Shown here in pieces: positions 5,898-34,204 of a stretch of 64,000 nucleotides of DNA. Both the position numbers and the translations under genes were made by a program. How positions within the stretch are numbered: position 1 is the stretch's first letter; every line of letters starts with the position of its first letter. Under the pieces are notes generated by a model. It saw nothing but the letters and a program-made list of their open reading frames with translations. It was not told the DNA's origin and ran no database searches. Origin of the DNA: Reyranella massiliensis 521 (GTDB taxonomy: Bacteria > Pseudomonadota > Alphaproteobacteria > Reyranellales > Reyranellaceae); NCBI RefSeq assembly GCF_000312425.1, contig NZ_HE997181.1:840002-904001 (forward strand). Reading direction: 5' to 3'.

Positions 5898-7269
5898 CAT
5901 GACCGCCGGCGAGCTGCTCGCCGCCTACAAATCGAAGAAATTGTCGCCGGTCGAAGCGACCGACGCCGTCATCGCCCGCATCGAAGCCTGGGAACCGAAG
6001 CTGAAGGCCCTCTATGCGCCGGACTTCGGAGCGGCCCGCAAGGCCGCGAAGGAAGCCGAGAAACGCTGGCAGGCCGGCAAGCCGCAGGGATCGCTCGATG
6101 GCGTGCCGATCACCATCAAGGAGAACATTGCGACCAAGGGCGTGCCAGTGCCGCTCGGAACGGCCGCGACCGAACTCGTGCCCGCCGCGGCGGACGCGCC
6201 GGCATCGGCGAGGGTACGTGAGGCGGGAGCGATCATCCTCGCCAAGACGACCATGCCGGACTACGGCATGCTGTCCTCGGGGCGCAGCTCGTTTCATCCC
6301 CTGACTCGCAATCCCTGGAACCTTGCCTGGAATCCCGGCGGCTCCAGCTCGGGGGCGGGGGCCGCAGCGGCGGCAGGCTACGGGCCGCTGCATCTCGGGA
6401 CCGATATTGGCGGCTCGGTGCGCCTGCCGGCCTGCTGGAACGGCATCTTCACCCTGAAGCCCAGCCTTGGCCGCATCCCGGTCGATCCGCCGTTCTTCGG
6501 TCGCGCCATCGGCCCCATGACGCGCACGGTCGCGGACTCGGCGCTGCTGATGGCCGAGCTCTCCAAGCCCGATCCACGTGACCATATGAGCCTGCCGCCG
6601 GCGACCATCGACTGGGCAGCTGGTCCGCGCGATCCCAAAGGCCTCAAGATCGGTCTGCATCTCGATGCAGGTTCGGGGCTGCCGGTCGATGCCGAGACCA
6701 AGGCGGCAGTCGAAGCGGCCGCCAAGCTGTTCGCCGATGCCGGTGCCCATATCGAGCCGGTGCCCCCCTTTCTGTCGCCCGACATGCTGCATCTGCAGGA
6801 CCTCTTCTGGCGGGTTCGCAGCTGGGTCGATTTCTCGGCGTTGAGTCACGAGCGCCAGGCCAAGGTGCTGCCCTTTATTGCCGACTGGTGCCGCGGCGGC
6901 GCCGATGTCTCGGGCAGCATGGTGATTCGCGGCGTCAACAACTACATGGCAATCCGCGCTGCTGCGACGCGCGCGACACAGCCTTTCGACTTCGTGTTGT
7001 CGCCGGTTTCGCCCGTGCCGACCTATCGGGCGGAATGGGAGACGCCGACCAACGACGTCAATCGTCCGCTGGAGCACATCTCCTTCACCATGCCCTACAA
7101 CATGAGCGAACAGCCGGCCGCGTCGATCAACTGCGGCTACACGCAGGAAGGCAAGCCGATTGGGCTGCAGATCGCCGGCCATCGTTTCGACGATCTCGGC
7201 GTGATGCAGCTCTCGCGCTGGTTCGAGACCGCGCGCGGCGCGCAGAAGAAATGGCCGGAGCCGAAGTAA
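5881..7269 (+). CDS. Amidase, amidase-signature family
   Basis: A 462-residue amidase-signature enzyme that hydrolyses an amide bond. The Ser-cisSer-Lys triad is visible: K80 in PITIKENIA, the cis-Ser near 155 in GGSSSGAGAA, and the nucleophile S179 in GTDIGGSVRLP. Length fits the family (about 450-500). A second ATG at 5899 would remove the overlap with the upstream gene; neither start has a strong ribosome site, so the exact start is open. The next gene starts 10 bases downstream, suggesting an operon with the Asp/Glu racemase-like protein, possibly for amide or hydantoin-like compounds. The substrate cannot be read from sequence. Confidence 0.92.
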   Translation: MTAIHDMTAGELLAAYKSKKLSPVEATDAVIARIEAWEPKLKALYAPDFGAARKAAKEAEKRWQAGKPQGSLDGVPITIKENIATKGVPVPLGTAATELVPAAADAPASARVREAGAIILAKTTMPDYGMLSSGRSSFHPLTRNPWNLAWNPGGSSSGAGAAAAAGYGPLHLGTDIGGSVRLPACWNGIFTLKPSLGRIPVDPPFFGRAIGPMTRTVADSALLMAELSKPDPRDHMSLPPATIDWAAGPRDPKGLKIGLHLDAGSGLPVDAETKAAVEAAAKLFADAGAHIEPVPPFLSPDMLHLQDLFWRVRSWVDFSALSHERQAKVLPFIADWCRGGADVSGSMVIRGVNNYMAIRAAATRATQPFDFVLSPVSPVPTYRAEWETPTNDVNRPLEHISFTMPYNMSEQPAASINCGYTQEGKPIGLQIAGHRFDDLGVMQLSRWFETARGAQKKWPEPK

Positions 7270-23459: not shown

Positions 23460-24695
23460 GTGAATAGCAAAACATCATCGAGACGGGCCTTTCTGGCGCA
23501 AGCCGGAACGGGCGGCCTCATGCTCGTGTCGGGCGCCACCTGGGCGCAAAGTCCGGCGACTCCGACCACGATTGCACTGCCTTTGCCGGGCGGTCCTGAC
23601 AAGCGGGTTGTCACCAAGGCCTTTCCCCAGAAGGGACCGATGATCCTGCAGCGGACCCGCCCGCCGCTGCTCGAAACACCGTTCGAAGTCTTCGACCGCG
23701 GCGTCTTTACGCCCAACGATGCCTTCTACGTGCGTTGGCACTGGGCGGTCATTCCGACCGAGATCGGCGTCGACACCTTCCGGCTCTCCGTGCAGGGCCA
23801 TGTCGACAAAGAACTGTCGCTGTCGTTGAAGGAGATCGTCGACGGCCTGCCACGCGTGGAATTGGCGGCGGTCAACCAATGCTCGGGCAATTCGCGCGGC
23901 TTTACAGAGCCGCGTGTTGCCGGCGCGCAGTGGGCCAACGGCGCCATGGGCAACGCCAAGTGGATGGGCGTGAAGCTTCGCGACGTGCTGGATCGTGCCG
24001 GCATCAAGCCCGGCGCCGTCGCCGTGCGCTTCGCTGGGCTCGACGAGCCCGTGGTGGGTGACGCGCCGAAGTTCATGAAGTCGCTCTCGCTGGATCATGC
24101 GCGCGACGGCGAAGTGATGATCGCCTACGCCATGAACGGCGAACAGCTTCCGCTGTTGAATGGCTTTCCCCTGCGCCTCGTGGTGCCGGGCTGGTACTCG
24201 ACCTATTGGGTGAAGATGCTCGACCGCATCGAAGTGCTGTCGACACCTGATGAGAACTTCTGGACCAAGAGCGCGTACCTGATCCCCGATACGCCAGCTG
24301 CGGACATGAAGCCGGGCCAGACTGGCGTTGCGATGGTGCCAATCACGAAAATGGTGCCGCGCTCCTTCATTACCAACATCAGGGCTGGCGAGCCTTTGAA
24401 GGCCGGCCTGAAGAACCTAGTGCGTGGCATCGCCTTCGGCGGTGCGACCGGGGTCAGGTCGGTCGATCTTTCGATGGATGGCGGCACCACCTGGTTGCCG
24501 ACGGTTCTCGGCCGCGACGAAGGCAAGTACAGCTTCCGGCAATGGCAGGCCGAGGTGACGCCGGCCGCCGGCGATCTCGCACTGATGGTCCGCTGCACCA
24601 ACGACGACGGGCTCGCTCAACCGCGGGCGAACAACTGGAATCCCAGCGGGTTCATGCACAATGGCATCGAGACGGTGCGCGCGAAGGTGGCCTGA
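23460..24695 (+). CDS. Sulfite dehydrogenase molybdenum subunit (SorA-like)
   Basis: A 411-residue periplasmic sulfite oxidase family protein starting at GTG. A twin-arginine signal (SSRRAFLAQAG) ends near TWAQ. The molybdenum-ligand cysteine is C141 in VNQCSGNSRG, the family signature; the dimerisation domain follows in the C-terminal third (VDLSMDGGTTW). The enzyme oxidises sulfite to sulfate and passes electrons to cytochrome c. The next gene, 3 bases on, encodes a small c-type cytochrome, matching the SorA-SorB arrangement known from Starkeya novella. Other Mo-enzymes of the fold (for example YedY-like) lack such a cytochrome partner. Confidence 0.88.
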   Translation: MNSKTSSRRAFLAQAGTGGLMLVSGATWAQSPATPTTIALPLPGGPDKRVVTKAFPQKGPMILQRTRPPLLETPFEVFDRGVFTPNDAFYVRWHWAVIPTEIGVDTFRLSVQGHVDKELSLSLKEIVDGLPRVELAAVNQCSGNSRGFTEPRVAGAQWANGAMGNAKWMGVKLRDVLDRAGIKPGAVAVRFAGLDEPVVGDAPKFMKSLSLDHARDGEVMIAYAMNGEQLPLLNGFPLRLVVPGWYSTYWVKMLDRIEVLSTPDENFWTKSAYLIPDTPAADMKPGQTGVAMVPITKMVPRSFITNIRAGEPLKAGLKNLVRGIAFGGATGVRSVDLSMDGGTTWLPTVLGRDEGKYSFRQWQAEVTPAAGDLALMVRCTNDDGLAQPRANNWNPSGFMHNGIETVRAKVA

Positions 24696-24698
24696 CCG

Positions 24699-25088
24699 AT
24701 GAAAATCTCCATGGGCGTGGTTGGCTTTGCCGTTCCGATCCTGGCGGGTCTGGTGCTTGCCTTGATCGGCCATCCCGCAGTCCAGCTTCCGCCGCCGCCT
24801 GTGGTCGCCGCCTCTACGTCGCCGGCCGCGGGCTTTGTTTTGAAGTCGGTGTCCGTAGAGCTGCCGGTCAGCGACGTGGCCTTCCCCGGCGGCGCGAAGG
24901 CGGATGCGGTTGCCGCCAACTGCCTGTCCTGCCACTCCGCCGGCATGGTGCTGACCCAGCCCGACCTCACCCGGGCCGTGTGGACGGACATCGTCGAGAA
25001 GATGATCCATGCCTACAAGGCGCCGGTAGCAGAGGCCGATGTCGCGGCCATCGTCGACTATCTGCAGGCGACCAGGGGCGCCAAGTAG
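24699..25088 (+). CDS. c-type cytochrome subunit (SorB-like) of sulfite dehydrogenase
   Basis: A 129-residue exported monohaem cytochrome. A hydrophobic N-terminus (residues about 5-25) acts as signal or anchor; the haem site is C75-L-S-C78-H79, and a Met in EKMIHAYKAP is a candidate distal ligand. It starts 3 bases after the SorA-like gene, so the pair is translationally linked and very likely forms the heterodimer in the periplasm, with electrons passed to a soluble cytochrome or oxidase. Confidence 0.86.
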   Translation: MKISMGVVGFAVPILAGLVLALIGHPAVQLPPPPVVAASTSPAAGFVLKSVSVELPVSDVAFPGGAKADAVAANCLSCHSAGMVLTQPDLTRAVWTDIVEKMIHAYKAPVAEADVAAIVDYLQATRGAK

Positions 25089-25189
25089 TTGGATTTCCCC
25101 GACTTTCCGCCCTTCCTGAGATTCTTTCCTTCGTAATCCACAGGGACTACACTGCCTCGCTTTCCCGCTCCGAGGGATCTGGAAGGCAC

Positions 25190-26425
25190 ATGGCTCATAT
25201 CAGACTGAATACCCATCCCAGCCAGGGCGGCCAGGCCGCGCCTCCGGTCGTCTGGGGCGCGCGCGATCCGGCAATTCGCGGCCCCGTCGTGGGCACGGTG
25301 GCGGATCCTGCACGGCGCAATGCCATCGGCGTGCATTCCGGCAGCTACGGCATCTATCGCGCTTTGGCGATCGCGGCGCAGGAGCTGAAGGCCGGACATC
25401 GGCCTGACTTTACCAATACGTCGCCTGCCGAGCCTATCGGCCCGTTCGAAAGCTGGTTCGACCCGAAGAAGATCGTGTCGCTCGATCCCTGGGGCCACAT
25501 GGTGGCCGAAGTATTCGCCGACAAGCTGGCGGCGGGCTGGGACATCCGCCCGACCATCGCCGTCACCAAGGCGCATGTGCACATGCCGGAAATCCGCGAT
25601 GCCATCGCGGCCGGGCGGCTGAAACCCGACAACGACATCCTGAGTTCGTCGGGCGATGTGAAGGTCACCAAGGCTGCGGTCGAGCCGGTATGGTGGCTGC
25701 CCGGGATCGCAGAGCGTTTCGGCGTCAAGGAAACCGATCTGCGCCGCACCCTGTTCGAGCAGACCGGCGGCATGTACACCGAGCTCGTCACGCGCATGGA
25801 TCTCGAACTCTTCCTGCCGCCCATCGGTGGATCTACGATCTATTTCTTCGGCGACGTGCGGAAGCTCGGCAAGCCGGAAACCAAAATCGCCTGCCGCCTC
25901 CACGACGAGTGCAACGGCTCCGACGTGTTCGGTTCCGACATCTGCACCTGCCGGCCCTACCTCGCGCATGGCATCGAGATCTGCATCGAGATGGCGCAGA
26001 AGGGCGGCGTTGGCGTGGTCATCTACAATCGCAAGGAGGGCCGGGCGCTGGGCGAGGTGACCAAGTTCCTGGTCTACAACGCGCGCAAGCGCCAGCCGGG
26101 CGGCGATTCTGCGGCGCAGTACTTCAACCGCACCGAATGCGTCGCCGGCGTACAGGACATGCGTTTTCAGGAGCTGATGCCCGACCTGTTCCATTGGCTG
26201 GGCATCGCGCGGATCGACCGCTTTGCGTCGATGAGCAACATGAAGTCCGATGCCTTGCGTGAACAGGGGATCGAGGTGGTCGAACAGGTGCCGATTCCCG
26301 ATGAACTGATTCCTGCAGACGCCCAGGTCGAAATGGATGCCAAGAAGGCCGCCGGCTACTTCACGCCGAAGAAGCCTGCCGTCGAGGAGCTGGCTAGGCC
26401 CAAGGGCAGGGGGTTGGACGAATGA
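25190..26425 (+). CDS. GTP cyclohydrolase II-like protein, URC1 type (uracil catabolism)
   Basis: A 411-residue protein whose C-terminal half is the GTP cyclohydrolase II fold: zinc cysteines C241, C252 and C254 (HDECNGSDVFGSDICTC) and the phosphate-site motif RKEGRALGE at 281-289. About 200 extra N-terminal residues and altered motifs separate it from RibA. This matches URC1 of the yeast Lachancea kluyveri uracil pathway and its bacterial homologues. The neighbours support this: DUF1688 (URC4) overlaps its stop and uracil phosphoribosyltransferase (URC6 function) follows. Expected substrate is a uracil nucleotide, not GTP. The frame is open upstream, but GGAAGG precedes ATG 25190. Confidence 0.88.
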   Translation: MAHIRLNTHPSQGGQAAPPVVWGARDPAIRGPVVGTVADPARRNAIGVHSGSYGIYRALAIAAQELKAGHRPDFTNTSPAEPIGPFESWFDPKKIVSLDPWGHMVAEVFADKLAAGWDIRPTIAVTKAHVHMPEIRDAIAAGRLKPDNDILSSSGDVKVTKAAVEPVWWLPGIAERFGVKETDLRRTLFEQTGGMYTELVTRMDLELFLPPIGGSTIYFFGDVRKLGKPETKIACRLHDECNGSDVFGSDICTCRPYLAHGIEICIEMAQKGGVGVVIYNRKEGRALGEVTKFLVYNARKRQPGGDSAAQYFNRTECVAGVQDMRFQELMPDLFHWLGIARIDRFASMSNMKSDALREQGIEVVEQVPIPDELIPADAQVEMDAKKAAGYFTPKKPAVEELARPKGRGLDE

Positions 26426-27597
26426 CGTCATTGGGGCGCACTCGTCCAACGACTGACTCGATTGCCTACCTCCGCACACCAGCGGCCATTCGCGAGCGGT
26501 CGGCCAGGGTGCTGAAGCATGTCGAGGACGGGCAGTCGCATTGGTTTTCCCTGTCGGGCGACGGGCTGGAAGCGGCGGTACAGGCGACGCTTGCCGTGAC
26601 GCGGGAGCGCTTTCCCAATCCGGCAGCCATCCCTTTCCATTCGCGCTGGCGGCATTTTGAAGTCGGCGGCCGCGATCGCTGGAGCGCGTTGGCTGAGCGA
26701 CTGAAGGGGTTGCCGCCCGAAGAGATCGCGCGTCGCCGCATCGACCTCGCGGTCGTGTCGGTGCTGCTCGACGCCGGTGCCGGCACCGCCTGGAGCTATC
26801 GCGAGCCGGGCACGGGTGAAACCTACGCGCGCTCCGAAGGGCTCGGCGTGGCGAGCCTGCACATGTTCGCCCATGGCGCTTTCAGCCGCGACGCCAAGGG
26901 CGACCCTCTGCGGGTCGATGCCGAGCGTCTCGCGGCGTTGACGCCCATGGATATCGCCATGGGCTTTCAGGTAAAGGCGCACAATCCGCTGCTCGGCCTG
27001 GAAGGTCGCGCCGAGCTGCTGCGCAAGCTGGGCGGCACGGGGCTCGAACGGCCGGGCGCGCTGTTCGATATCGTCGCGGGCAGCAGCGAGGTGAAGGCCG
27101 AATCGATTCTGGCGGCGGTCCTCGACAAGCTCTCGCCGATCTGGCCGACCAAGCTCGGTGACGTCTGGGAGCATCCAGCCGCGGGGCTGGTCCCATTCCA
27201 TAAGCTCTCGCAATGGATGAGCTATTCGCTGGTCGAGCCGATCGAAGGCGCGGGACTGCGCGTCGTCGCGCTCGATGCGTTGACCGGCCTGCCCGAGTAT
27301 CGCAACGGCGGGCTCCTGGTCGATGCCGGTGCCTTGCGCCCCAAACAGCGCGCGCTGTTGGAAAAGGCGTTCAAGCCCGGCGACGAGGCCATTGTCGAAT
27401 GGCGGGCGCTGACGGTGATGCTGCTCGACCGCATCGCCGAGCATGTGCGCGGCCATCTCGGCCTCGATGCCGCTCGTCTGCCGTTGGTCAAAGTGCTGGA
27501 GGCCGGTACCTGGTTTGCCGGACGCAGGCTCGCGGCGGAGCGTCGCCCGGGCGGGGGGCCGCCGATCGCCATAGAAAGCGACGGCACGGTGTTTTGA
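26422..27597 (+). CDS. DUF1688 / URC4 homologue, uracil catabolism
   Basis: A 391-residue DUF1688 protein with no signal peptide. Its start overlaps the URC1-like stop in ATGA, so the two are translated together. It begins IAYLRTPAAIRERS and contains HSRWRHFEVGGRDRW, GAGTAWSYREPGTG and QWMSYSLVEPIE, conserved blocks of the family. In L. kluyveri, URC4 is required for uracil degradation at a step after the cyclohydrolase-like reaction; its chemistry has not been settled to my knowledge. No standard catalytic motif is obvious. Confidence 0.88.
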   Translation: MTSLGRTRPTTDSIAYLRTPAAIRERSARVLKHVEDGQSHWFSLSGDGLEAAVQATLAVTRERFPNPAAIPFHSRWRHFEVGGRDRWSALAERLKGLPPEEIARRRIDLAVVSVLLDAGAGTAWSYREPGTGETYARSEGLGVASLHMFAHGAFSRDAKGDPLRVDAERLAALTPMDIAMGFQVKAHNPLLGLEGRAELLRKLGGTGLERPGALFDIVAGSSEVKAESILAAVLDKLSPIWPTKLGDVWEHPAAGLVPFHKLSQWMSYSLVEPIEGAGLRVVALDALTGLPEYRNGGLLVDAGALRPKQRALLEKAFKPGDEAIVEWRALTVMLLDRIAEHVRGHLGLDAARLPLVKVLEAGTWFAGRRLAAERRPGGGPPIAIESDGTVF

Positions 27598-27612
27598 GGG
27601 GAGTCTTCATCA

Positions 27613-28251
27613 ATGTCATTGCCGCATTCGATCCATGTCGTGAGCCACCCGCTGGTGCAGCACAAGCTCAGCAAGATGCGCGACAAGGAGACGTCGAGCA
27701 CGAATTTCCGCCGGCTGCTGCGCGAGATGGGCTTGCTGCTGGGCTACGACGCCACGCGTGACCTGCCCTTGGTCGAGCGCGACATCGAAACGCCGATTGA
27801 AGCGATGAAAGCGCCGCTGCTCGACGGCAAGAAGCTGGTGGTGGTGCCGATCCTGCGCGCGGGCCTCGGGCTTGCCGAGGGCATTATCGACCTCGTGCCG
27901 CTGGCACGCATGGGCCATGTCGGTCTCTATCGCGATCCACGCACGCTTCAGGCGGTCGAGTATTACTTCAAGATCCCGCAGGACATCTCGGACCGCGACG
28001 TCATTGTCTGCGATCCCATGCTCGCCACTGCGCACTCCGCGATCGCCGCCGTCGACCGCTTGAAGGAGTCAGGTGCCAAAAGGATCAAGTTCATCTGCAT
28101 TCTGGGTTCGGAGCAGGGCGCACGAGCCTTCGCCGAAGTTCATCCAGATGTGCAAGTGTTCGCGGCAGCAATCGATGCAAAACTCAACGATCACGGGTAT
28201 ATTGTTCCTGGGCTCGGCGATGCGGGCGACCGTCTCTTCGGGACCAAATAG
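27613..28251 (+). CDS. upp: Uracil phosphoribosyltransferase
   Basis: A 212-residue cytoplasmic enzyme that makes UMP from uracil and PRPP. It has the PRPP loop [14 protein letters not shown] and the uracil-binding C-terminal motif [12 protein letters not shown], plus an N-terminal block containing [14 protein letters not shown]. Length fits the family. It starts 15 bases after URC4. In the URC pathway the uracil is first converted to the nucleotide (URC6 in yeast), so this gene is likely the first committed step here as well as a salvage enzyme. Confidence 0.95.
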
Positions 28252-28275: not shown

Positions 28276-28671
28276 ATGTCTCCGGACCTGAAATACCTCC
28301 TCTTCTCTACGATCCTGACGTTCGTGCAAGTGCTGGTGGCGGCAATCGGCGCCAACCAAGCGGTCGGTCTCAACACGCTCGCCGGTAACCGCGAGGGCCT
28401 TGGCGAGATTCCCGGTTGGGCGGGCCGCGCCAAGCGTGCCCACCTCAACATGATCGAGAACATGGTGCTGTTCGCGGCCCTGGTCCTGATCACAGCAGTG
28501 GCCGGCAAGGCCAGCGCCATGACGGCGATGGGCGCCATGATCTTCTTCTGGGCTCGGCTCGCTTATGCCGTGATCTATGTCGCCGGCATCGCCTGGCTGC
28601 GTACGCTCGCCTGGTTCGTGTCCGTGATCGGCATGGCCATGATCGCCTGGGAACTCCTGAAGGCGATATAG
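28276..28671 (+). CDS. MAPEG family membrane protein
   Basis: A 131-residue protein with four predicted membrane helices. The motif GRAKRAHLNMIENMVLFAA (MAPEG: R-A-x-x-x-x-N-x-x-E) is the conserved glutathione-site region of the family. Bacterial members are mostly uncharacterised; some have glutathione transferase or peroxidase activity. GGAG lies 8 bases before the ATG. It follows upp by 24 bases on the same strand, but no link to pyrimidine breakdown is evident. Confidence 0.85.
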   Translation: MSPDLKYLLFSTILTFVQVLVAAIGANQAVGLNTLAGNREGLGEIPGWAGRAKRAHLNMIENMVLFAALVLITAVAGKASAMTAMGAMIFFWARLAYAVIYVAGIAWLRTLAWFVSVIGMAMIAWELLKAI

Positions 28672-28695: not shown

Positions 28696-29166
28696 TCAGT
28701 GTTTCATGGCGGGCGATGCGGCACCCATCGCGGCGACGCTCAGCTCGACATCGACCGAACCAGCTTTTTCGAAGACCAGCGTGGCCGGGATCTTGGCGTC
28801 CTTGGCGAAGGGCGCCTTCAACTCCATGAACATCAGGTGATAGCTGCCGGGCTTCAGTTCGACGGTGGCGCCGGGCGCGATCTCCAGTCCCTTTTCCAGC
28901 TCGCGCATGCGCATCACGTTGCCGTCCATCTTCATTTCGTGAATTTCGGCCTTGTTGGCAGCTGCGCTGCGCACGGCGACGAGCCGGTCGGGCGTCGTGC
29001 CCTTGTTGGTGATGGTGAGGAAGCCGCCGCCGCTCTGTGCCGAGGGCGGCGTCGCGCGTGTCCAGGGATTGACGATCTCGAGGGAGCCGACCTTGTAGTC
29101 CTGTGCGAACGCCGGCAGGGCGAAGATCGCGATGACGGTGGCAACGAGCCAGCGACGGAGAGTCAT
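28696..29166 (-). CDS. PCuAC-type periplasmic copper chaperone
   Basis: A 156-residue secreted protein, signal peptide ending at ALPAFA. The copper-binding pattern of PCuAC is present: HEMKMDGNVMRMRELEKG supplies a His and several Met ligands, and GSYHLMFMEL the distal His-Met pair. Known members deliver Cu(I) to cytochrome oxidase. It is the last gene of a minus-strand run: DUF2946-like, TonB receptor, BNR protein, TlpA-like thioredoxin, PCuAC. The gap to the thioredoxin gene is 54 bases. An AGGAA ribosome site lies 8 bases before the ATG. Confidence 0.92.
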   Translation of the reverse strand: MTLRRWLVATVIAIFALPAFAQDYKVGSLEIVNPWTRATPPSAQSGGGFLTITNKGTTPDRLVAVRSAAANKAEIHEMKMDGNVMRMRELEKGLEIAPGATVELKPGSYHLMFMELKAPFAKDAKIPATLVFEKAGSVDVELSVAAMGAASPAMKH

Positions 29167-29220
29167 GGTTTTATTCCTTTCAAGGAGTTGGGGTGGATAT
29201 GGTCGGAGCAGAAGCCAGCT

Positions 29221-29706
29221 TCAACGTTGGCGCTGTCGGTCGAGCCAGGCTTTGACCTCGGCAAGATCGGCAACGCCCAGCAGGGTCGTTACCTTGCCCT
29301 CGCGGTCGATCATCAGGGTGCGCGGCAGTTCGCCGGACCAGGAGGGATCGATCTCATAGCGCAGGCGTTCGTTGAAGCGGTCGGCGAAGCTCCAGCTTTC
29401 TGTCTCGCCGAGGCCCGTGCGGGTTAGCATTTCCTCGACGCGCGCCGGCGGCTGCGGCACGGGGTCGGCGGCCAGCAGCACCAGCCGCATGTCCGGACGC
29501 TCCTTCTGAAGTTTGGCCCAATGCGGCAGCTCGGTCAGGCAGGGCGCGCAGGTGAGCCCCCAGAGATGTACGATCGTCGGCTGGCCTTCATGGGCAGCCA
29601 TGAGCCTCGACCAGCTGCCCCGCTCGAACGGCTGCGGATCGGCGGCGTGGGCCTGGCCAAAGGGTCCCAGCGCCAGCAGCAGGGCAAGGATGGCGGTCTT
29701 TCTCAT
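29221..29706 (-). CDS. TlpA-like periplasmic thioredoxin-fold protein
   Basis: A 161-residue thiol-redox protein with a signal peptide ending near QAHA. The active site is CAPC in WGLTCAPCLTELP, and GELPRTLMIDREGKV is the cis-Pro region. TlpA/ResA-type proteins keep copper-site cysteines reduced before metal insertion into CuA or copper chaperones. The gene begins inside the stop codon of the BNR gene (ATGA overlap), so translation is coupled. Its place between a copper-type receptor and PCuAC supports a reductase role in copper delivery. Confidence 0.88.
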   Translation of the reverse strand: MRKTAILALLLALGPFGQAHAADPQPFERGSWSRLMAAHEGQPTIVHLWGLTCAPCLTELPHWAKLQKERPDMRLVLLAADPVPQPPARVEEMLTRTGLGETESWSFADRFNERLRYEIDPSWSGELPRTLMIDREGKVTTLLGVADLAEVKAWLDRQRQR

Positions 29707-30890
29707 GGCTGGTTCTCCAGCGGGATCAGCCGATAGCCCTCGACCCTGGTCAGCCACGAGAGATAGGCGTGGCCACCATGGGCGACGAGCAGCGGATGGT
29801 CCGAGGCATCGGCGGTTTCGGCAATCGTACGGGCGTCGGTCCATTGGCGGCCGCTGTCGCGGCTCACTTGCCAACGCACCACCGACTTCGTGCCGTCGAA
29901 TTCCTTCCACACCAGATGCAGGGCCTGACCGTCCGATAGAAGATAGGGCCGGGCCGGCTGGCGGTTGGGAGAGGACAGGGCACGCGGTGCGCTGAAGGGA
30001 ACGTTGCCATTATCGGCGCGGGCATAGAACAGGCCCTTGCGCGACGGCGCATCGGTAAACCAGGCGACGTGATAGGACCCGTCCGGCGCAATGGCGATGG
30101 TGGGGCCATGATGCGGGCAGGCCTCGATCTTCCAGTCGTCGGCACTGACCCGGCGCAGCGGACCGGGTGTCGTCGCGTCCGTGAAGGTGACGACGGCATG
30201 GTCGCGCACCGAACCGGGAAAGATATTGCGGAACACGATCGCAGGCCGGCCCGATCTTGCGAAGGCGACGCCCAGCCGGCAGCATTCGCAGGTGTTGTCG
30301 AGCGCGATCTCCGTCTTGCCGAAGCCGGTGTCGCCATCCTCCCAGGCATAGGCCAGGGCGGCGCCAGGATAGGGCTTGCCTGCGGCGCGCGCCCTGGGGC
30401 CGTTGCGCTTGTCGAGCCAGGCCGCGAAGACGCGACCCGACGAGGGATCGACGGCCACCGTCTCGAAACGCTGGCTGGTCTTGTCGGTAGTGATTGGCCG
30501 CGGCGGTGTGAAGCTCGCCCCGTTGTCGTTGGAGCGGGCGAAGAAGGCGCGGCCGTTGAAGTTCTTGTCCTGGAAGATGGCGAAGGTGACGATAACCCCA
30601 CCCTTTGGATCGACCGCGATACGCGCGCGCGCATCGGGACCCCAGTCGAGGTTCATCGCCTCGGGCGTCACCGCGACGGGCTCGGAGAAGGTCTTGCCGA
30701 GATCGGTCGATTTCACCACGGCGATCTTGTCGGCCGACGCGCGCACCAGCCATAGCGTACCGTCGGGACCGAAGGCCGGTGTGGCAGTGAAGGCTTCAGG
30801 CGCAGCGCCCGGCTTGCCGTGATTGTGGTGCTGGGCGGCAGCGGGGCCAGCCAGCAGAAGGGTCGCCAGGAAGGCAAGGAACAGGCGCAT
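29703..30890 (-). CDS. Secreted BNR/sialidase-superfamily repeat protein with Cys/His motifs
   Basis: A 395-residue exported protein, signal peptide ending at GPAAAQ and followed by HHNHG, a His cluster. The rest is a beta-propeller of BNR/Asp-box type: repeated blocks such as STDLGKTF, SNDNGASF, and SRDSGRQW. It is unlikely to be a sialidase since no catalytic arginine triad is evident. Two unusual motifs, TCECCRLG and CPHHGP, look like soft-metal sites. ATG overlaps the TonB receptor stop by one base, and its own stop overlaps the thioredoxin start, so it is tightly embedded in a copper operon. Inferred role: periplasmic or surface copper binding. Confidence 0.78.
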   Translation of the reverse strand: MRLFLAFLATLLLAGPAAAQHHNHGKPGAAPEAFTATPAFGPDGTLWLVRASADKIAVVKSTDLGKTFSEPVAVTPEAMNLDWGPDARARIAVDPKGGVIVTFAIFQDKNFNGRAFFARSNDNGASFTPPRPITTDKTSQRFETVAVDPSSGRVFAAWLDKRNGPRARAAGKPYPGAALAYAWEDGDTGFGKTEIALDNTCECCRLGVAFARSGRPAIVFRNIFPGSVRDHAVVTFTDATTPGPLRRVSADDWKIEACPHHGPTIAIAPDGSYHVAWFTDAPSRKGLFYARADNGNVPFSAPRALSSPNRQPARPYLLSDGQALHLVWKEFDGTKSVVRWQVSRDSGRQWTDARTIAETADASDHPLLVAHGGHAYLSWLTRVEGYRLIPLENQP

Positions 30891-33070
30891 CAGAACCTCA
30901 CTCGCAGGCCGGCGGTGGCGGTGAGCGGCATCCCCAGGGCGGGAATAGCCGAGGCGTTGACCGTCGAACCCTCGAACGAGGTCAGGGTATAGCCCGACGC
31001 GAGATACTGCACGTTCGTGAGGTTCTGCACGCTGGCGTAGATGTCGACATCCTTGACCGGCGAATAGGTCAGGCCGAGATCGATCAGGGTTGCCCCCTCG
31101 TTGAGCTGGGTGTGGCCCGTGTCGTTCCAGTAGGCGGGGAAGGACTTCAAGGACGCCGTCAGCACCAGCTCCGAAATCGGCCGCCATTCGGCGCTGGCGG
31201 TCACCATCGTGGTCGGTACCTGCCCGAGCTGTACGCCGGTCCGGATCAGGGTCGGGAAGTTGGAACTGGTGAGATAGGCCGAGGTGGCGACGAAGCTCGC
31301 GCCAAATTTCAGTTCCTTGGTCGGCTGCCAGCCGCCGATGATCTCGACGCCTCGGAAGGTGGCGTTGCCGACATTCTGGTACTGCCGCACCGTCGTGAAG
31401 GCCGGACTGAGCCCTGCCGCCGAGACGAAGGGAGCAGCGCACGCCGCACTGGCATTGCAGACCGTGACGAAGTCGATGAAGTTGTCGAGGTTGTTGTTGA
31501 AGAGGGTTCCCGACAGGTTGAACTCGCGCCACTGGAAGTCGAAGCCGATCTCCTGGCCGAAGTTGGTCATGGGCTGCAGGTTGGGATTGATGGCCGTGTA
31601 GGACGTGCCGCTGGCGAAGCTGCGGTACATCTGGTTCATGCCCGGCGCAGAGAAGTTGCGATAGATCGCGCCACGCAGCACCAGCTCGTCGGTAACATGG
31701 AATTTCAGTCCGAGCCGCGGATCGAAGCTCGAGGCGCTGGAGTTGGCGACCGGATTGTTGGTACCGGAATTGACGGTCAACACATTGGCATTCAGCGCCT
31801 GCCAGAAGTCGCCGCGTAGGCCGATCGTGACATCGAGCGGAATGCCCGGCACGCGATAGGTGCCCTGCGCGAAGATGCCCTGCAGCCGGTGCTCGCCATT
31901 GGCGACGAAGCTGGTGGGGGCGGCGGTCGCGCTGGCGTAGAGGTTGTTGTAGTCGGAGATGACGATACGGCGTGCGTCGACGCCGATCTTGACGTCGCGG
32001 ATCGGTCCGAAGTTCGCCTCGTAGAAGATCGAGCCACCCTGCTCGGAATTGGGTGCCGTCTCGATCTGGCTGACGAACTGGTTCGTGGCGCTGGTGTTGT
32101 TCAGCGTATAGGCGCCGCTCGCCACGTTGATGGTGCCGAACGAGCCGCCGCCAGCCCAGGCGTTGAAGTTGATCGAGGATTTCTCGTCGAGCCGATAGGA
32201 GCCGCCCAGCAGCAGCCGATAGGTCGACCAGTTGTTATGGGCGTAGGCCCAGGTCAGGCCATCTTCGTAGGTCTGGTTGAAGTAGGCCTTTGCGTAGAGC
32301 TTGAGACTCTCGCTGGGTGTCAGGAAGGCGGAGAAGGCGACATTGTCGGCCTTCGACGCGGTCGGGACGAGGTTGACGTTGCGATACTGGGCGGGCGTCG
32401 TGTTGTAACCCGCACTCTGGGTGTGGTTGTAGGAAAGACCGACCTTCAGCTTGTCGTTCACCGCGAGGCTGGTCGAGATCTCGGCGGTCGAGGTGTTGAA
32501 GCTGCCGTAGCTCACGTCGGCCGCCACGCCAGTCTTGGTGGGCTCGCGGGTCACGATGTTGATGACGCCGCCCATGGCCATGTTGCCCCACAGGCTGGTC
32601 GCCCCGCCGCCGCGGATGACCTCGATCCGGTCGACCGAATTCTTCGGGATCGCGCTCCAGTTGATGGTCCTGAAATAGGGGTCGTTGATCGGCACGCCGT
32701 CCACCATCACCAGCGTGTTGATGGTCGTGGTGGTGCCGAAGCCGCGAATGTTGACCGGCTGGGCCGTCGGATGAAGCTGGCCGGTCGGGATCGTCGGCAG
32801 CCAGACGCCGGGGATGCGGTTCACGATCTGGTCGACGCCGGTCTCCGGCATGGCCTCGATCTGCTCTCGCGTGACTACGGTCGTGCTGACATCGAGCTTC
32901 TCGAGGTCGGAACCGCGGCCGGCGCTGACGGTGATCGGCGGCAGATTGATGGTCGCCGCCGGTGGTGCTGCCGGAGGGTCCGCTGTCGATGAGACCTGCG
33001 CCTTGGCCAGTACAGGAGCCAGCCCCAAGGCTGTAAAGGCGGCAAACGTCGCCGCGCGAACGGAAAACAT
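30890..33070 (-). CDS. TonB-dependent outer-membrane receptor, probable copper type
   Basis: A 726-residue outer-membrane receptor. Order: signal peptide, plug domain from about residue 45 (ITVSAGRGSDLEKLD, VNIRGFGTTTTINTLVMVDG, RIEVIRGGGATSLWGNMAMGGVINI cut across 130-165), then a 22-strand barrel ending in the typical terminal aromatic (LRVRF). The ligand is not visible from the sequence. Copper is suggested by the operon: BNR Cys/His protein, TlpA-like thioredoxin and PCuAC follow, and a DUF2946-like gene precedes. A siderophore or other metallophore receptor is the alternative. Confidence 0.9.
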   Translation of the reverse strand: MFSVRAATFAAFTALGLAPVLAKAQVSSTADPPAAPPAATINLPPITVSAGRGSDLEKLDVSTTVVTREQIEAMPETGVDQIVNRIPGVWLPTIPTGQLHPTAQPVNIRGFGTTTTINTLVMVDGVPINDPYFRTINWSAIPKNSVDRIEVIRGGGATSLWGNMAMGGVINIVTREPTKTGVAADVSYGSFNTSTAEISTSLAVNDKLKVGLSYNHTQSAGYNTTPAQYRNVNLVPTASKADNVAFSAFLTPSESLKLYAKAYFNQTYEDGLTWAYAHNNWSTYRLLLGGSYRLDEKSSINFNAWAGGGSFGTINVASGAYTLNNTSATNQFVSQIETAPNSEQGGSIFYEANFGPIRDVKIGVDARRIVISDYNNLYASATAAPTSFVANGEHRLQGIFAQGTYRVPGIPLDVTIGLRGDFWQALNANVLTVNSGTNNPVANSSASSFDPRLGLKFHVTDELVLRGAIYRNFSAPGMNQMYRSFASGTSYTAINPNLQPMTNFGQEIGFDFQWREFNLSGTLFNNNLDNFIDFVTVCNASAACAAPFVSAAGLSPAFTTVRQYQNVGNATFRGVEIIGGWQPTKELKFGASFVATSAYLTSSNFPTLIRTGVQLGQVPTTMVTASAEWRPISELVLTASLKSFPAYWNDTGHTQLNEGATLIDLGLTYSPVKDVDIYASVQNLTNVQYLASGYTLTSFEGSTVNASAIPALGMPLTATAGLRVRF

Positions 33071-33131
33071 GAACTCTCCCCACGAATGACAAACGAACGC
33101 GACGCGGGTGAGCGCGTCGCGGCTTCAGGAG

Positions 33132-33521
33132 TCAGACGAGGGAAGGTGGCGCGCGGGGTTGACTGGGCCCGTCGCGAATGCCGACGGGAGAGTGTGCATC
33201 GACTGCGGCCACGACGCGGATCGTCGTGACGACAGGCTCGATACGAATGAATGCGGCGGAGGGCTCGGCCAGCACCGGCGCGTGAGCGAGGCCAAGGCAG
33301 CATTCGTGGTTCTGGGTTTCCGCCGGCGTGGACGACGGGGAGTCGTCTTGGCCTGCACTGGGTAGGCAGAAAGCGCCCCACATCTTGGCGGCAGCGAGCG
33401 GACCCGCATCGCGCAGCATGGCAGCGTGTGCCATCGGCTGCAGGAAGTTGAGCGTGATCGCAAACAACGCAACGGCAAATGCCGATGCGCGCCAACCCGA
33501 ATCGGGACGTTTGCGGATCAT
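33132..33521 (-). CDS. DUF2946-like small exported protein
   Basis: A 129-residue protein with an N-terminal hydrophobic segment (about residues 11-32) serving as signal or anchor. It has a HECCLGL motif in the middle, like the paired-Cys motif of DUF2946 proteins, which are common beside copper TonB receptors. It ends 61 bases before the TonB receptor start, so it is probably the first gene of that operon. The ATG at 33521 has no clear ribosome site; the start is uncertain. A copper-binding role is inferred from the neighbours and the His-x-Cys-Cys motif. Confidence 0.6.
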   Translation of the reverse strand: MIRKRPDSGWRASAFAVALFAITLNFLQPMAHAAMLRDAGPLAAAKMWGAFCLPSAGQDDSPSSTPAETQNHECCLGLAHAPVLAEPSAAFIRIEPVVTTIRVVAAVDAHSPVGIRDGPSQPRAPPSLV

Positions 33522-33598: not shown

Positions 33599-34204
33599 TC
33601 AGAAGCGCAAAGGGGCAAGCCGCGGGTCGCCGGTTTTCGCGGCATGGAGATGCAGCAGCCACATCGCGCCGCCCTGGAAGCCGTGCAGCGTACGTCGTCC
33701 TTCACGCAAATCGGCGATGTATTCGGCGAAGGGGACCTGGCGCGGCACCAGTACCTCGCCATCGTCGAGCTTGGGATCGGCCACCTTGCGAGCATCCAGC
33801 GCCAGGAAGCAGTGAACGCGGTTGTTGAGCCGCGGTGCATTGGCGAAGAACGTGCCCAGGGGATGCCATTCCTCGGAGGCAAAGCCCGTCTCTTCGAGAA
33901 GCTCGCGTTTCATTGCCTCGATAGTCGGCTCATCCGGCTTGTCGTGGATGCCGCTCGGCAGTTCGACGACGGTCTGCTGGCAACCGTGGCGATATTCCTC
34001 GATCAGGATGATGTTGCCGTCGTGCGTCAGAGCCAGGGCCGTCACCCAGTCGGGTTGCTCGATGACATGATAGGGCGCGAGGACGTGGCCGTTGGGCAAC
34101 TCCACCTTGTCCGACCGGAGAGCGATCCAACGGTCGCGGTAAGCGTACCGGGACTCCAGCACTTTCCAGGGAGCGACCGTGGCGCCCTGCTTCTCGTCTT
34201 TCAT
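33599..34204 (-). CDS. NUDIX hydrolase, ADP-ribose pyrophosphatase-like
   Basis: A 201-residue cytoplasmic NUDIX protein. The Nudix box is GIHDKPDEPTIEAMKRELLE followed by ETGF, one residue longer between Gly and the first Glu than the strict GX5E pattern, but with the REx2EE core intact. It most resembles the ADP-ribose/NDP-sugar pyrophosphatase branch. Start at 34204 is one base after the SDR stop codon, so the genes are co-translated. Substrate not determined. Confidence 0.87.
   Translation of the reverse strand: MKDEKQGATVAPWKVLESRYAYRDRWIALRSDKVELPNGHVLAPYHVIEQPDWVTALALTHDGNIILIEEYRHGCQQTVVELPSGIHDKPDEPTIEAMKRELLEETGFASEEWHPLGTFFANAPRLNNRVHCFLALDARKVADPKLDDGEVLVPRQVPFAEYIADLREGRRTLHGFQGGAMWLLHLHAAKTGDPRLAPLRF

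Follow-up and report, generated by a model that had tools for sequence, protein, structure and literature searches.

In Bradyrhizobium japonicum the pcuABCDE operon is reportedly a copper-starvation operon for cytochrome oxidase, with a DUF2946 leader, a PCuAC chaperone and the YcnI-like PcuD. The periplasmic thioredoxin TlpA is said to reduce the cysteines of the copper chaperone ScoI and of the target CoxB before metallation. Bacterial copper acquisition as a whole is called poorly characterised in PMC12914433. The cruR-bfrG(crtA)-bp2921 operon of Bordetella pertussis (PMC9426467, PMC12914433) is headed by a leader peptide, CruR, and encodes a TonB-dependent transporter (TBDT), CrtA, that imports copper, apparently for heme-copper oxidases (PMC12914433). 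In PMC9426467 the CXXC motif of CruR is called invariant and required for copper control, RAPP is required for expression, and PCuAC, Sco, YcnI, CopC and AhpC_TSA genes are given as the gene company of CruR-type leaders. RGPP is named as an arrest-type motif in PMC12992588. Here we describe a related locus, an operon that includes a gene for a BNR propeller protein, in a 64,000-nt stretch of Reyranella massiliensis 521 (contig NZ_HE997181.1, positions 840,002 to 904,001 of the forward strand), referred to below as the window. The host genome assembly is 5.79 Mb in one contig. We regard the operon as a variant of the leader-peptide-controlled copper TBDT operons that carries a propeller family for which we found no description in the literature on BNR, sialidase or propeller proteins together with copper, PCuAC, TonB or TlpA; within that literature, the suggestion of the initial annotation that the protein had not been described before holds. 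The words sialidase, BNR and propeller are also absent from the main text, figures and tables aside, of the CruR paper (PMC9426467).

As far as the published descriptions go, the operon resembles cruR-bfrG(crtA)-bp2921 in that a DUF2946 leader with an RAPP motif heads a TBDT operon, that PCuAC and Sco genes occur in some related operons, and that the TBDT is linked to heme-copper oxidases. It differs from that system in having propeller and TlpA genes and no PepSY_TM gene (Pfam finds no PepSY-type gene among the five operon genes), in a leader with HxCC and not CxxC, in a covarying hairpin, and in a leader-TBDT intergenic region of 61 nt as against 162. With cutFOG of Rhodobacter capsulatus (PMC9973294) it shares a Pro-rich C-terminal end of the leader peptide and, behind it, a stem-loop close to the downstream ribosome-binding site. 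CutF differs from the present leader in having CxxxC, in controlling a multicopper oxidase and in promoting expression with copper present; its stem-loop shields a ribosome-binding site, with the opposite copper sign (PMC9973294). The PCuAC-YcnI-CopCD order of three relatives (L059, L060 and L125; loci are given L numbers) recalls pcuABCDE, whereas the present operon places the propeller and TlpA between TBDT and PCuAC. The presumed client of TlpA here, in place of ScoI and CoxB, is the propeller, which is co-encoded and in one case fused to it. The AhpC_TSA genes listed beside CruR-type leaders may be the TlpA of the present operon.

The operon lies on the minus strand in the order DUF2946 leader open reading frame (ORF), TBDT, propeller, TlpA-like thioredoxin and PCuAC (Table 1), the leader ORF standing first as in CruR. 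The initial annotation had proposed five close or overlapping genes on one strand, with the propeller locked between its neighbours by overlaps. All five were confirmed, and the propeller frame shares 1 nt with that of the TBDT (TGATG) and 4 nt with that of TlpA (ATGA). On account of the gene content and order, the leader ORF, and the PCuAC, Sco, YcnI, CopCD and RegBA neighbours described below, we read this as an operon that acquires copper for respiratory heme-copper oxidases and is expressed when copper is short, and in which the propeller would be a periplasmic copper handler, reduced by TlpA, between TBDT and PCuAC. Judged from sequence, this full reading seems to us about evenly balanced between right and wrong. 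The copper character of the operon, already suggested in the initial annotation, is well supported by gene content and the leader ORF. The role of the propeller as a TlpA-reduced metal handler is proposed because of its four invariant cysteines, the adjacent TlpA gene and a natural fusion of the two proteins.

C201, C203, C204 and C258, the four cysteines that the window propeller possesses in total, are invariant in 44 sequences (the window and 43 of 79 loci) that are 31-83% identical to it, as well as in a 19-sequence alignment. In the loose set of all 79 loci, fragments included, each cysteine was found in 77 or 78. Other residues invariant in the 44 sequences include R88, D160, R205, R221, R229, W253, P259, G262, H274 and W277, while D230 and H260, the first His of CPHHGP, are conserved in more than 90%. 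HHNHG, TCECC and CPHHGP, which had been taken for soft-metal sites, are all present in the window propeller. The invariant cysteines, the thioredoxin pairing and the one fusion would suit such sites, but HHNHG does not characterise the family and CPHHGP is variable at its second His; the motifs common to the family are CxCC and the CP..G of CPHHGP. HHNHG was rejected as the key metal site, being absent from L035, L036, L108, L110 and many others. Two or more His residues occur in the segment in 26 of 43 dereplicated relatives, and His accounts for 75 of 1428 residues there and for 507 of 15642 elsewhere in the propeller (this count excludes L009, L016, L030, L032, L037, L070 and L119; of the remaining Reyranella-type rows it keeps three, and likewise three from a single other genus). 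The signal peptide of the window propeller looks ordinary by eye, which does not support a surface location, one of the two considered in the initial annotation; some relatives have lipoprotein-like signals, as judged by eye and a crude pattern. Many propellers from outside Reyranella possess an additional N-terminal cysteine pair ahead of the first blade, possibly a disulfide, that the window copy lacks.

An AlphaFold2 model of the propeller reached a predicted local distance difference test (pLDDT) score of 83 with 19 sequences and of 91 with 44 (predicted TM-score 0.88), with residues 16-30 below 50 and the block around C258 at 80. The strand order is compatible with seven blades, and D160-R162 and R221-D230 lie at turns after inner strands. 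Usual propeller topology puts such loops on one face. From this topology and the modelled strand order, the four cysteines are expected on loops of one face. The top VIA-align rows were PLL and PHL lectins and CylK (Z 28.4-30.4, root mean square deviation 2.8-3.5, 306-330 aligned residues). Identities were 10-13% for these and 6-13% among the 50 rows listed. The likeness to the lectins and CylK is one of propeller fold alone, and a shared fold shows no function. Foldseek matches were to ulvan-type lyases, lectins and sialidases. The best 50 fold rows contained no copper protein that we noticed, which excludes nothing, and a PDB sequence search gave weak matches alone, several of them sialidases (best E 0.019). 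Membership of a sialidase or glycan enzyme family (GH33, BNR_2) was rejected. Sialidases need a nucleophilic Tyr and a Glu, and neither a Tyr nor a Glu is invariant in the 44 sequences, Y289 being conserved in more than 90%; the BNR_2 score is 23.2 bits, below the cut-off of 31.4 (relative L108 reaches 33.4).

The window TlpA-like protein carries CAPC, and CxxC is present in 67/67 separate TlpA-like neighbours. All of its Pfam matches are below cut-off (AhpC-TSA 19 bits, cut-off 26), the L059 copy passes the Thioredoxin cut-off (25.1 vs 23.5), and PDB matches are to thioredoxin (E 8.7e-5), ResA (E 0.0006) and TlpA (E 0.0018). At L099, propeller and TlpA form a single 567-residue protein with, in order, a signal peptide, a propeller with CQCC and CPHHGA, and a thioredoxin domain with CPPC; its Pfam scores are slightly below cut-off for both BNR_2 (28.7 bits) and AhpC-TSA (24.1 bits). 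The TBDT exceeds the Pfam cut-offs for Plug (82 bits) and TonB_dep_Rec_b-barrel (146 bits), and no chain named CrtA was among its 18 PDB matches at E 1e-5. PCuAC belongs to PF04314 (cut-off 29.4; score in Table 1). Proteins of this family bind copper through a motif of the HX10MX21HXM type; the spacing here, H76-x10-M87-x22-H110-x-M112, is one residue longer, and solved PCuAC relatives exist.

The first set of relatives comprised 35 loci, 33 of which pass the motif rule C.CCR plus CP[HDEM][HQ]G; L037 fails because it is in pieces and L022 solely because a Cys follows CECC. In this set the propellers nearest to that of the window belong to an assembly of an alphaproteobacterium (94%) and to a Reyranella sp. 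(93%). The gene arrangement recurs more often than chance would give, but 30 of the 33 loci form one Reyranella-type group. A TBDT gene lies directly upstream (within less than 300 bp on the same strand) in 29 of the 33, a TlpA gene directly downstream in 32 and PCuAC nearby in 27. In a tblastn survey, nearly every Reyranella-type locus of sufficient length showed the five genes in this order; in L032 no PCuAC was found within 11 kb of sequence. L001 and L002, from the window's own genome, were excluded from the gene-context set. In total, 79 loci had a propeller match, of which 68 pass the rule and 11 fail and were counted apart. Genes were called by a custom script, with TBDT and TlpA models iterated from the same loci.

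Among the 35 passing loci of the whole-genome sample set, a TBDT gene immediately precedes the propeller in 28 (the sequence could hold one in 32), a TlpA gene immediately follows it in 31 (the sequence could hold one in 34), and PCuAC is near in 10. TBDT is missing from this position in L063, L104 (573 bp upstream), L108, L110, L112 (divergent), L114 and L115. A separate TlpA gene does not follow the propeller in L099, where the two are fused, in L109, where one lies about 5 kb upstream, in L114, where the contig ends, and in L115, which yielded none. The nine sample loci that fail the motif rule have TBDT directly upstream in three cases and TlpA next in two. The 4-nt overlap between propeller and TlpA recurs in most loci. 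Of the ten with PCuAC, L056 and L126 belong to Reyranella, and L057-L060 and L125 to a single other genus; at L118 the PCuAC gene is farther upstream. In L108 (7674-8798) and in L110, a Phenol_MetA_deg protein (PF13557) or its homolog precedes a lipoprotein-like propeller and TlpA, at the usual place of the TBDT.

Propeller matches were found in 17/398 genomes and 11/212 genera of the phylum sample (E<=1e-10), in 5/385 genomes and 3/276 genera of the class sample (E<=1e-15) and in 25/369 genomes and 24/272 genera sampled from the class of genome G292 (E<=1e-15). The family alignment served as query, the phylum and class samples overlap, and some genome matches are weak. The whole-genome search gave no propeller match in Reyranella genome G718 or in G560 of the same family, and tblastn found none on plasmids at 1e-15. 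Within Pseudomonadota the CxCC/CP propeller family spans two classes or more, and its usual setting is TBDT-propeller-TlpA. The Methylobacter assemblies L035 and L036 retain propeller and TlpA alone. In Methylolobus aquaticus (L037, about 5947-6440) the propeller is seen only as fragments, interrupted by a stop; a TlpA-like ORF lies nearby, as do genes resembling, by eye, those for heavy-metal efflux.

Copper links (DUF2946, PCuAC, Sco, YcnI and CopCD) hold for subsets of loci. L033, whose propeller is 52% identical and comes from an uncultured bacterium, carries a DUF2946 ORF with CNMC, then TBDT, propeller, TlpA, a Sco gene (by eye) and PCuAC. YcnI and CopCD follow PCuAC in L059, L060 and L125 (by Pfam for L059). 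Homologs of both RegB and RegA adjoin L067, L070 (where the propeller is a fragment), L100, L101, L103 and L113, and RegB alone adjoins L117; the L101 pair best matches ActS/PrrB (238 bits, cut-off 350) and ActR/PrrA (221 bits, cut-off 250). RegBA is a redox regulatory system that controls terminal oxidases. Elsewhere the host genome has two Sco homologs and one second PCuAC. It also possesses a second DUF2946 ORF (L131 7158-7538, minus strand, within G000:C1:3828500-3841000) with DCCLVGC and RAPPQTV, which scores 22.8 bits (cut-off 23.7) and overlaps the frame of a second TBDT gene (L131 4846-7161, minus strand). This pair is possibly a second copper TBDT locus of the genome.

The leader ORF is a DUF2946 member (29.6 bits against PF11162, cut-off 23.7) with a signal-peptide-like N-terminus, HxCC at residues 72-75 and RAPP at residues 123-126, about 45 residues beyond the Cys motif as in CruR. 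A DUF2946-type leader ending in R[AG]PP precedes the operon in 30/33 Reyranella-type loci, two of the remaining three being interrupted by contig ends, and in ten further loci. All 30 Reyranella-type copies have HxCC and none has CxxC, and R[AG]PP follows CC by 47 or 48 residues (RAPP in 18, RGPP in 12). The ten other leaders have CxxC, 45 to 50 residues before R[AG]PP, and that of L071 carries both motifs. The leader ORFs of L061 (DUF2946 by Pfam) and L062 are of DUF2946 type with CPYC, and end in SAAPP in place of RAPP, so their arrest motif would differ. Because the window leader has HECC in place of the CXXC of CruR, we class it as a DUF2946 relative that is possibly CruR-like, and not as CruR.

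The intergenic region and the end of the leader ORF fold together as a stack of three helices. The alignment for this fold comprises 28 leaders, from the window and 27 loci (omitted were L003, a near copy, L026, whose leader frame continues into the TBDT, L056 and L126), and shows 24 pairs, with 93.9% of cells paired. Twelve pairs are changed on both sides, against 4.9 +/- 1.4 in shuffled alignments (reached in 0/500) and 4 to 7 in slid versions. Helix 3 alone has seven such pairs (shuffled 1.6 +/- 1.0, 0/500), and the covarying hairpin is real. Helix 1 alone has four (shuffled 3.0 +/- 0.7, reached in 98/500), though its covariation score and its cells changed on both sides are above all shuffles and all slid versions; both of its arms are under extra constraint, one as codons and the other as ribosome-binding site. 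Leaders fold more strongly than the mean of their synonymous-codon versions, for which third positions were assumed to be 85% G or C, in 27/28 cases, and lie in the lowest 5% in just 6/28. The window leader folded as a single sequence is unexceptional (z -1.32), and Rfam gave one sub-threshold match, on the opposite strand, and no known RNA family. A terminator-like site lies at 33121-33098; its score by itself carries no meaning, since the scan found 2 such sites against 3.4 expected.

Table 1. Features of the operon and its leader in the window.
Feature	Position	Strand	Basis or remark
DUF2946 (CruR/CutF-like) leader ORF, 129 aa	33132..33521	-	PF11162
Codons of H72-E-C-C75, probable copper-sensing motif	33297..33308	-	metal binding inferred
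Codons of RAPP arrest-type motif	33144..33155	-	peptide end QPRAPPSLV*
Leader RNA, three stacked helices	33078..33143	-	alignment covariation, 24 pairs
Helix 1	33143-33137 with 33084-33078	-	touches TBDT ribosome-binding site
Helix 2	33133-33124 with 33097-33088	-	includes part of leader stop codon
Helix 3	33120-33112 with 33107-33099	-	terminator-like hairpin
TBDT, 726 aa	30890..33070	-	Pfam Plug and TonB_dep_Rec_b-barrel
CxCC/CP propeller (BNR), 395 aa, export signal by eye	29703..30890	-	alignment, AlphaFold2, fold matches
HHNHG N-terminal tail of mature propeller	30816..30830	-	not conserved across family
C201-E-C203-C204	30279..30290	-	between strands 194-200 and 207-212; invariant 44/44
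C258-P-H-H-G-P263	30102..30119	-	between strands 241-247 and 264-267; C258, P259, G262 invariant 44/44
TlpA-like thioredoxin, 161 aa, WGLTCAPC, export signal by eye	29221..29706	-	Pfam below cut-off, PDB matches
PCu(A)C copper chaperone, 156 aa	28696..29166	-	PF04314 135.8 bits

By analogy with CruR, a ribosome on the leader would stall at RAPP when copper is low, and the operon would be expressed; copper bound to the nascent HxCC site would free the ribosome and shut the operon off. The hairpin would take part, most likely as a signal for RNA polymerase pausing or termination, possibly also masking the TBDT ribosome-binding site. That site is predicted to be mostly paired (mean unpaired probability 0.16 in 25 leaders), and a translation lock by helix 1 was considered as the main mechanism. 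The simulations speak against it: a ribosome stalled at RAPP raises the mean only from 0.16 to 0.27 (20 of 25 leaders rose, one fell and one exceeded 0.5), and the hairpin of helix 3 persists (0.77 to 0.80). The simulation covers 25 of the 28 leaders, the window, L030 and L031 being omitted as their PP codons were not in frame in the stretch used. The masked fold of the window loses helix 1, yet its ribosome-binding site then pairs with the first TBDT codons. Because the simulated stall barely frees the site and the hairpin stays, pausing or termination is the more likely role of the hairpin, and the lock was demoted to a possibility. A Rho-dependent route as in B. pertussis CruR, with the hairpin as a polymerase pause signal or incidental and not as a translation lock, is given a little less than an even chance as an account of the regulation. 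It agrees with the small effect of the simulated ribosome, with the count of doubly changed pairs in helix 1, and with the 3′ end of the leader, where C exceeds G (top 0.5% of minus-strand 78-nt windows across the 64 kb) as described for the CruR rut site (PMC9426467); the CruR model also includes polymerase pausing between genes, according to the same source. The high covariation score and doubly changed cells of helix 1 argue against that route, as does the excess over synonymous-codon folds, though with few leaders in the lowest 5%. Predicted pairing of the leader stop region with the TBDT ribosome-binding site in seven of ten other loci (L057-L060, L064, L071 and L125, not L033, L068 or L118) counts against it too. 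In these seven, as judged by eye from predicted folds, a stop region such as TTTCCTGAC pairs with a ribosome-binding site such as GTCAGGAA over a long intergenic stretch.

Downstream of this control, the TBDT would import a copper chelate into the periplasm, and the propeller would accept copper through a thiolate site of CxCC and CP on one face. The co-encoded thioredoxin, whose pairing and conservation are observed, would keep the propeller cysteines reduced, and PCuAC, joined by Sco in loci that have it, would receive the copper destined for the CuA site of cytochrome oxidase. More broadly, TBDT, CxCC/CP propeller and TlpA may tentatively be viewed as an unrecognised copper-uptake module of Pseudomonadota, in which reduced thiolates strip copper from imported chelates for PCuAC or Sco and which in Reyranella is governed by an HxCC copper-sensing arrest peptide; we hold this wider proposal to be less probable than the copper-acquisition reading of the operon itself. 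Several observations weigh against the copper reading. The TBDT matches models of heme and siderophore receptors, and no copper-receptor model, including TIGR01778 for OprC-type copper TBDTs, is in the best 25 of 26 families at E<=1. The leader lacks the CxxC described as invariant in CruR. Outside the seven sample loci of Reyranella and the one other genus, PCuAC is near in just 3/28 (L061, L062 and L068), and most of these 28 have no recognisable R[AG]PP leader. In L035, L036, L063, L108 and L110 the propeller-TlpA pair has no same-strand upstream TBDT. The propeller cysteines could also be disulfides.

In its fullest form this last objection would make the propeller a sugar-binding or sialidase-like exported protein of a glycan- or siderophore-uptake operon, with structural disulfides and a TlpA that aids folding only. 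The nearest folds, lectins and sialidase-type propellers, the receptor models matched by the TBDT, and the scarcity of PCuAC outside two genera fit this explanation; it must also account for the PCuAC, DUF2946, Sco, YcnI and CopCD genes that accompany some of the loci, for a BNR_2 score below cut-off, and for the missing invariant Tyr and Glu, and it appears to us improbable. A somewhat better candidate, though still an unlikely one, is an enzyme acting on the organic part of a copper chelate, a chalkophore lyase or reductase, with catalytic or redox-active cysteines that free copper chemically. Usual topology would place the invariant R88, D160, R221 and R229, along with D230, on the same loop set as the cysteines, lyases, glycoside hydrolases and CylK, an alkylating enzyme, are among the closest folds together with lectins, and a dedicated thioredoxin would suit a thiol-redox enzyme. 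The low identities of the fold rows tell against it.

For the periplasmic step that carries copper from the outer membrane to its chaperones, a conserved four-cysteine propeller encoded beside a TBDT and a thioredoxin offers a concrete candidate. The natural L099 fusion provides one testable protein, and the HxCC variant offers a way to probe metal binding by copper-sensing arrest peptides. The findings suggest that BNR or sialidase-like proteins in such clusters merit re-annotation.

Of the genes around the operon, a MAPEG gene (28276-28671) lies downstream of PCuAC on the opposite strand, and because it points the other way the operon is taken to end after PCuAC. Upstream, a NUDIX gene on the same strand stops at 33599 and leaves 77 nt to the leader ORF, so transcription of the operon may begin further up; a scan for sigma-70 promoters found 0 against 0.6 expected. 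On the plus strand of the window (23460-25088), a molybdopterin sulfite-oxidase-like gene (Pfam) is followed by a short ORF with CLSCH that looks cytochrome c-like by eye and has no Pfam match. Also on the plus strand, genes for a GTP cyclohydrolase II-like protein, DUF1688 and uracil phosphoribosyltransferase are consecutive at 24542-28251, a row that we take to resemble a URC-type uracil degradation set.

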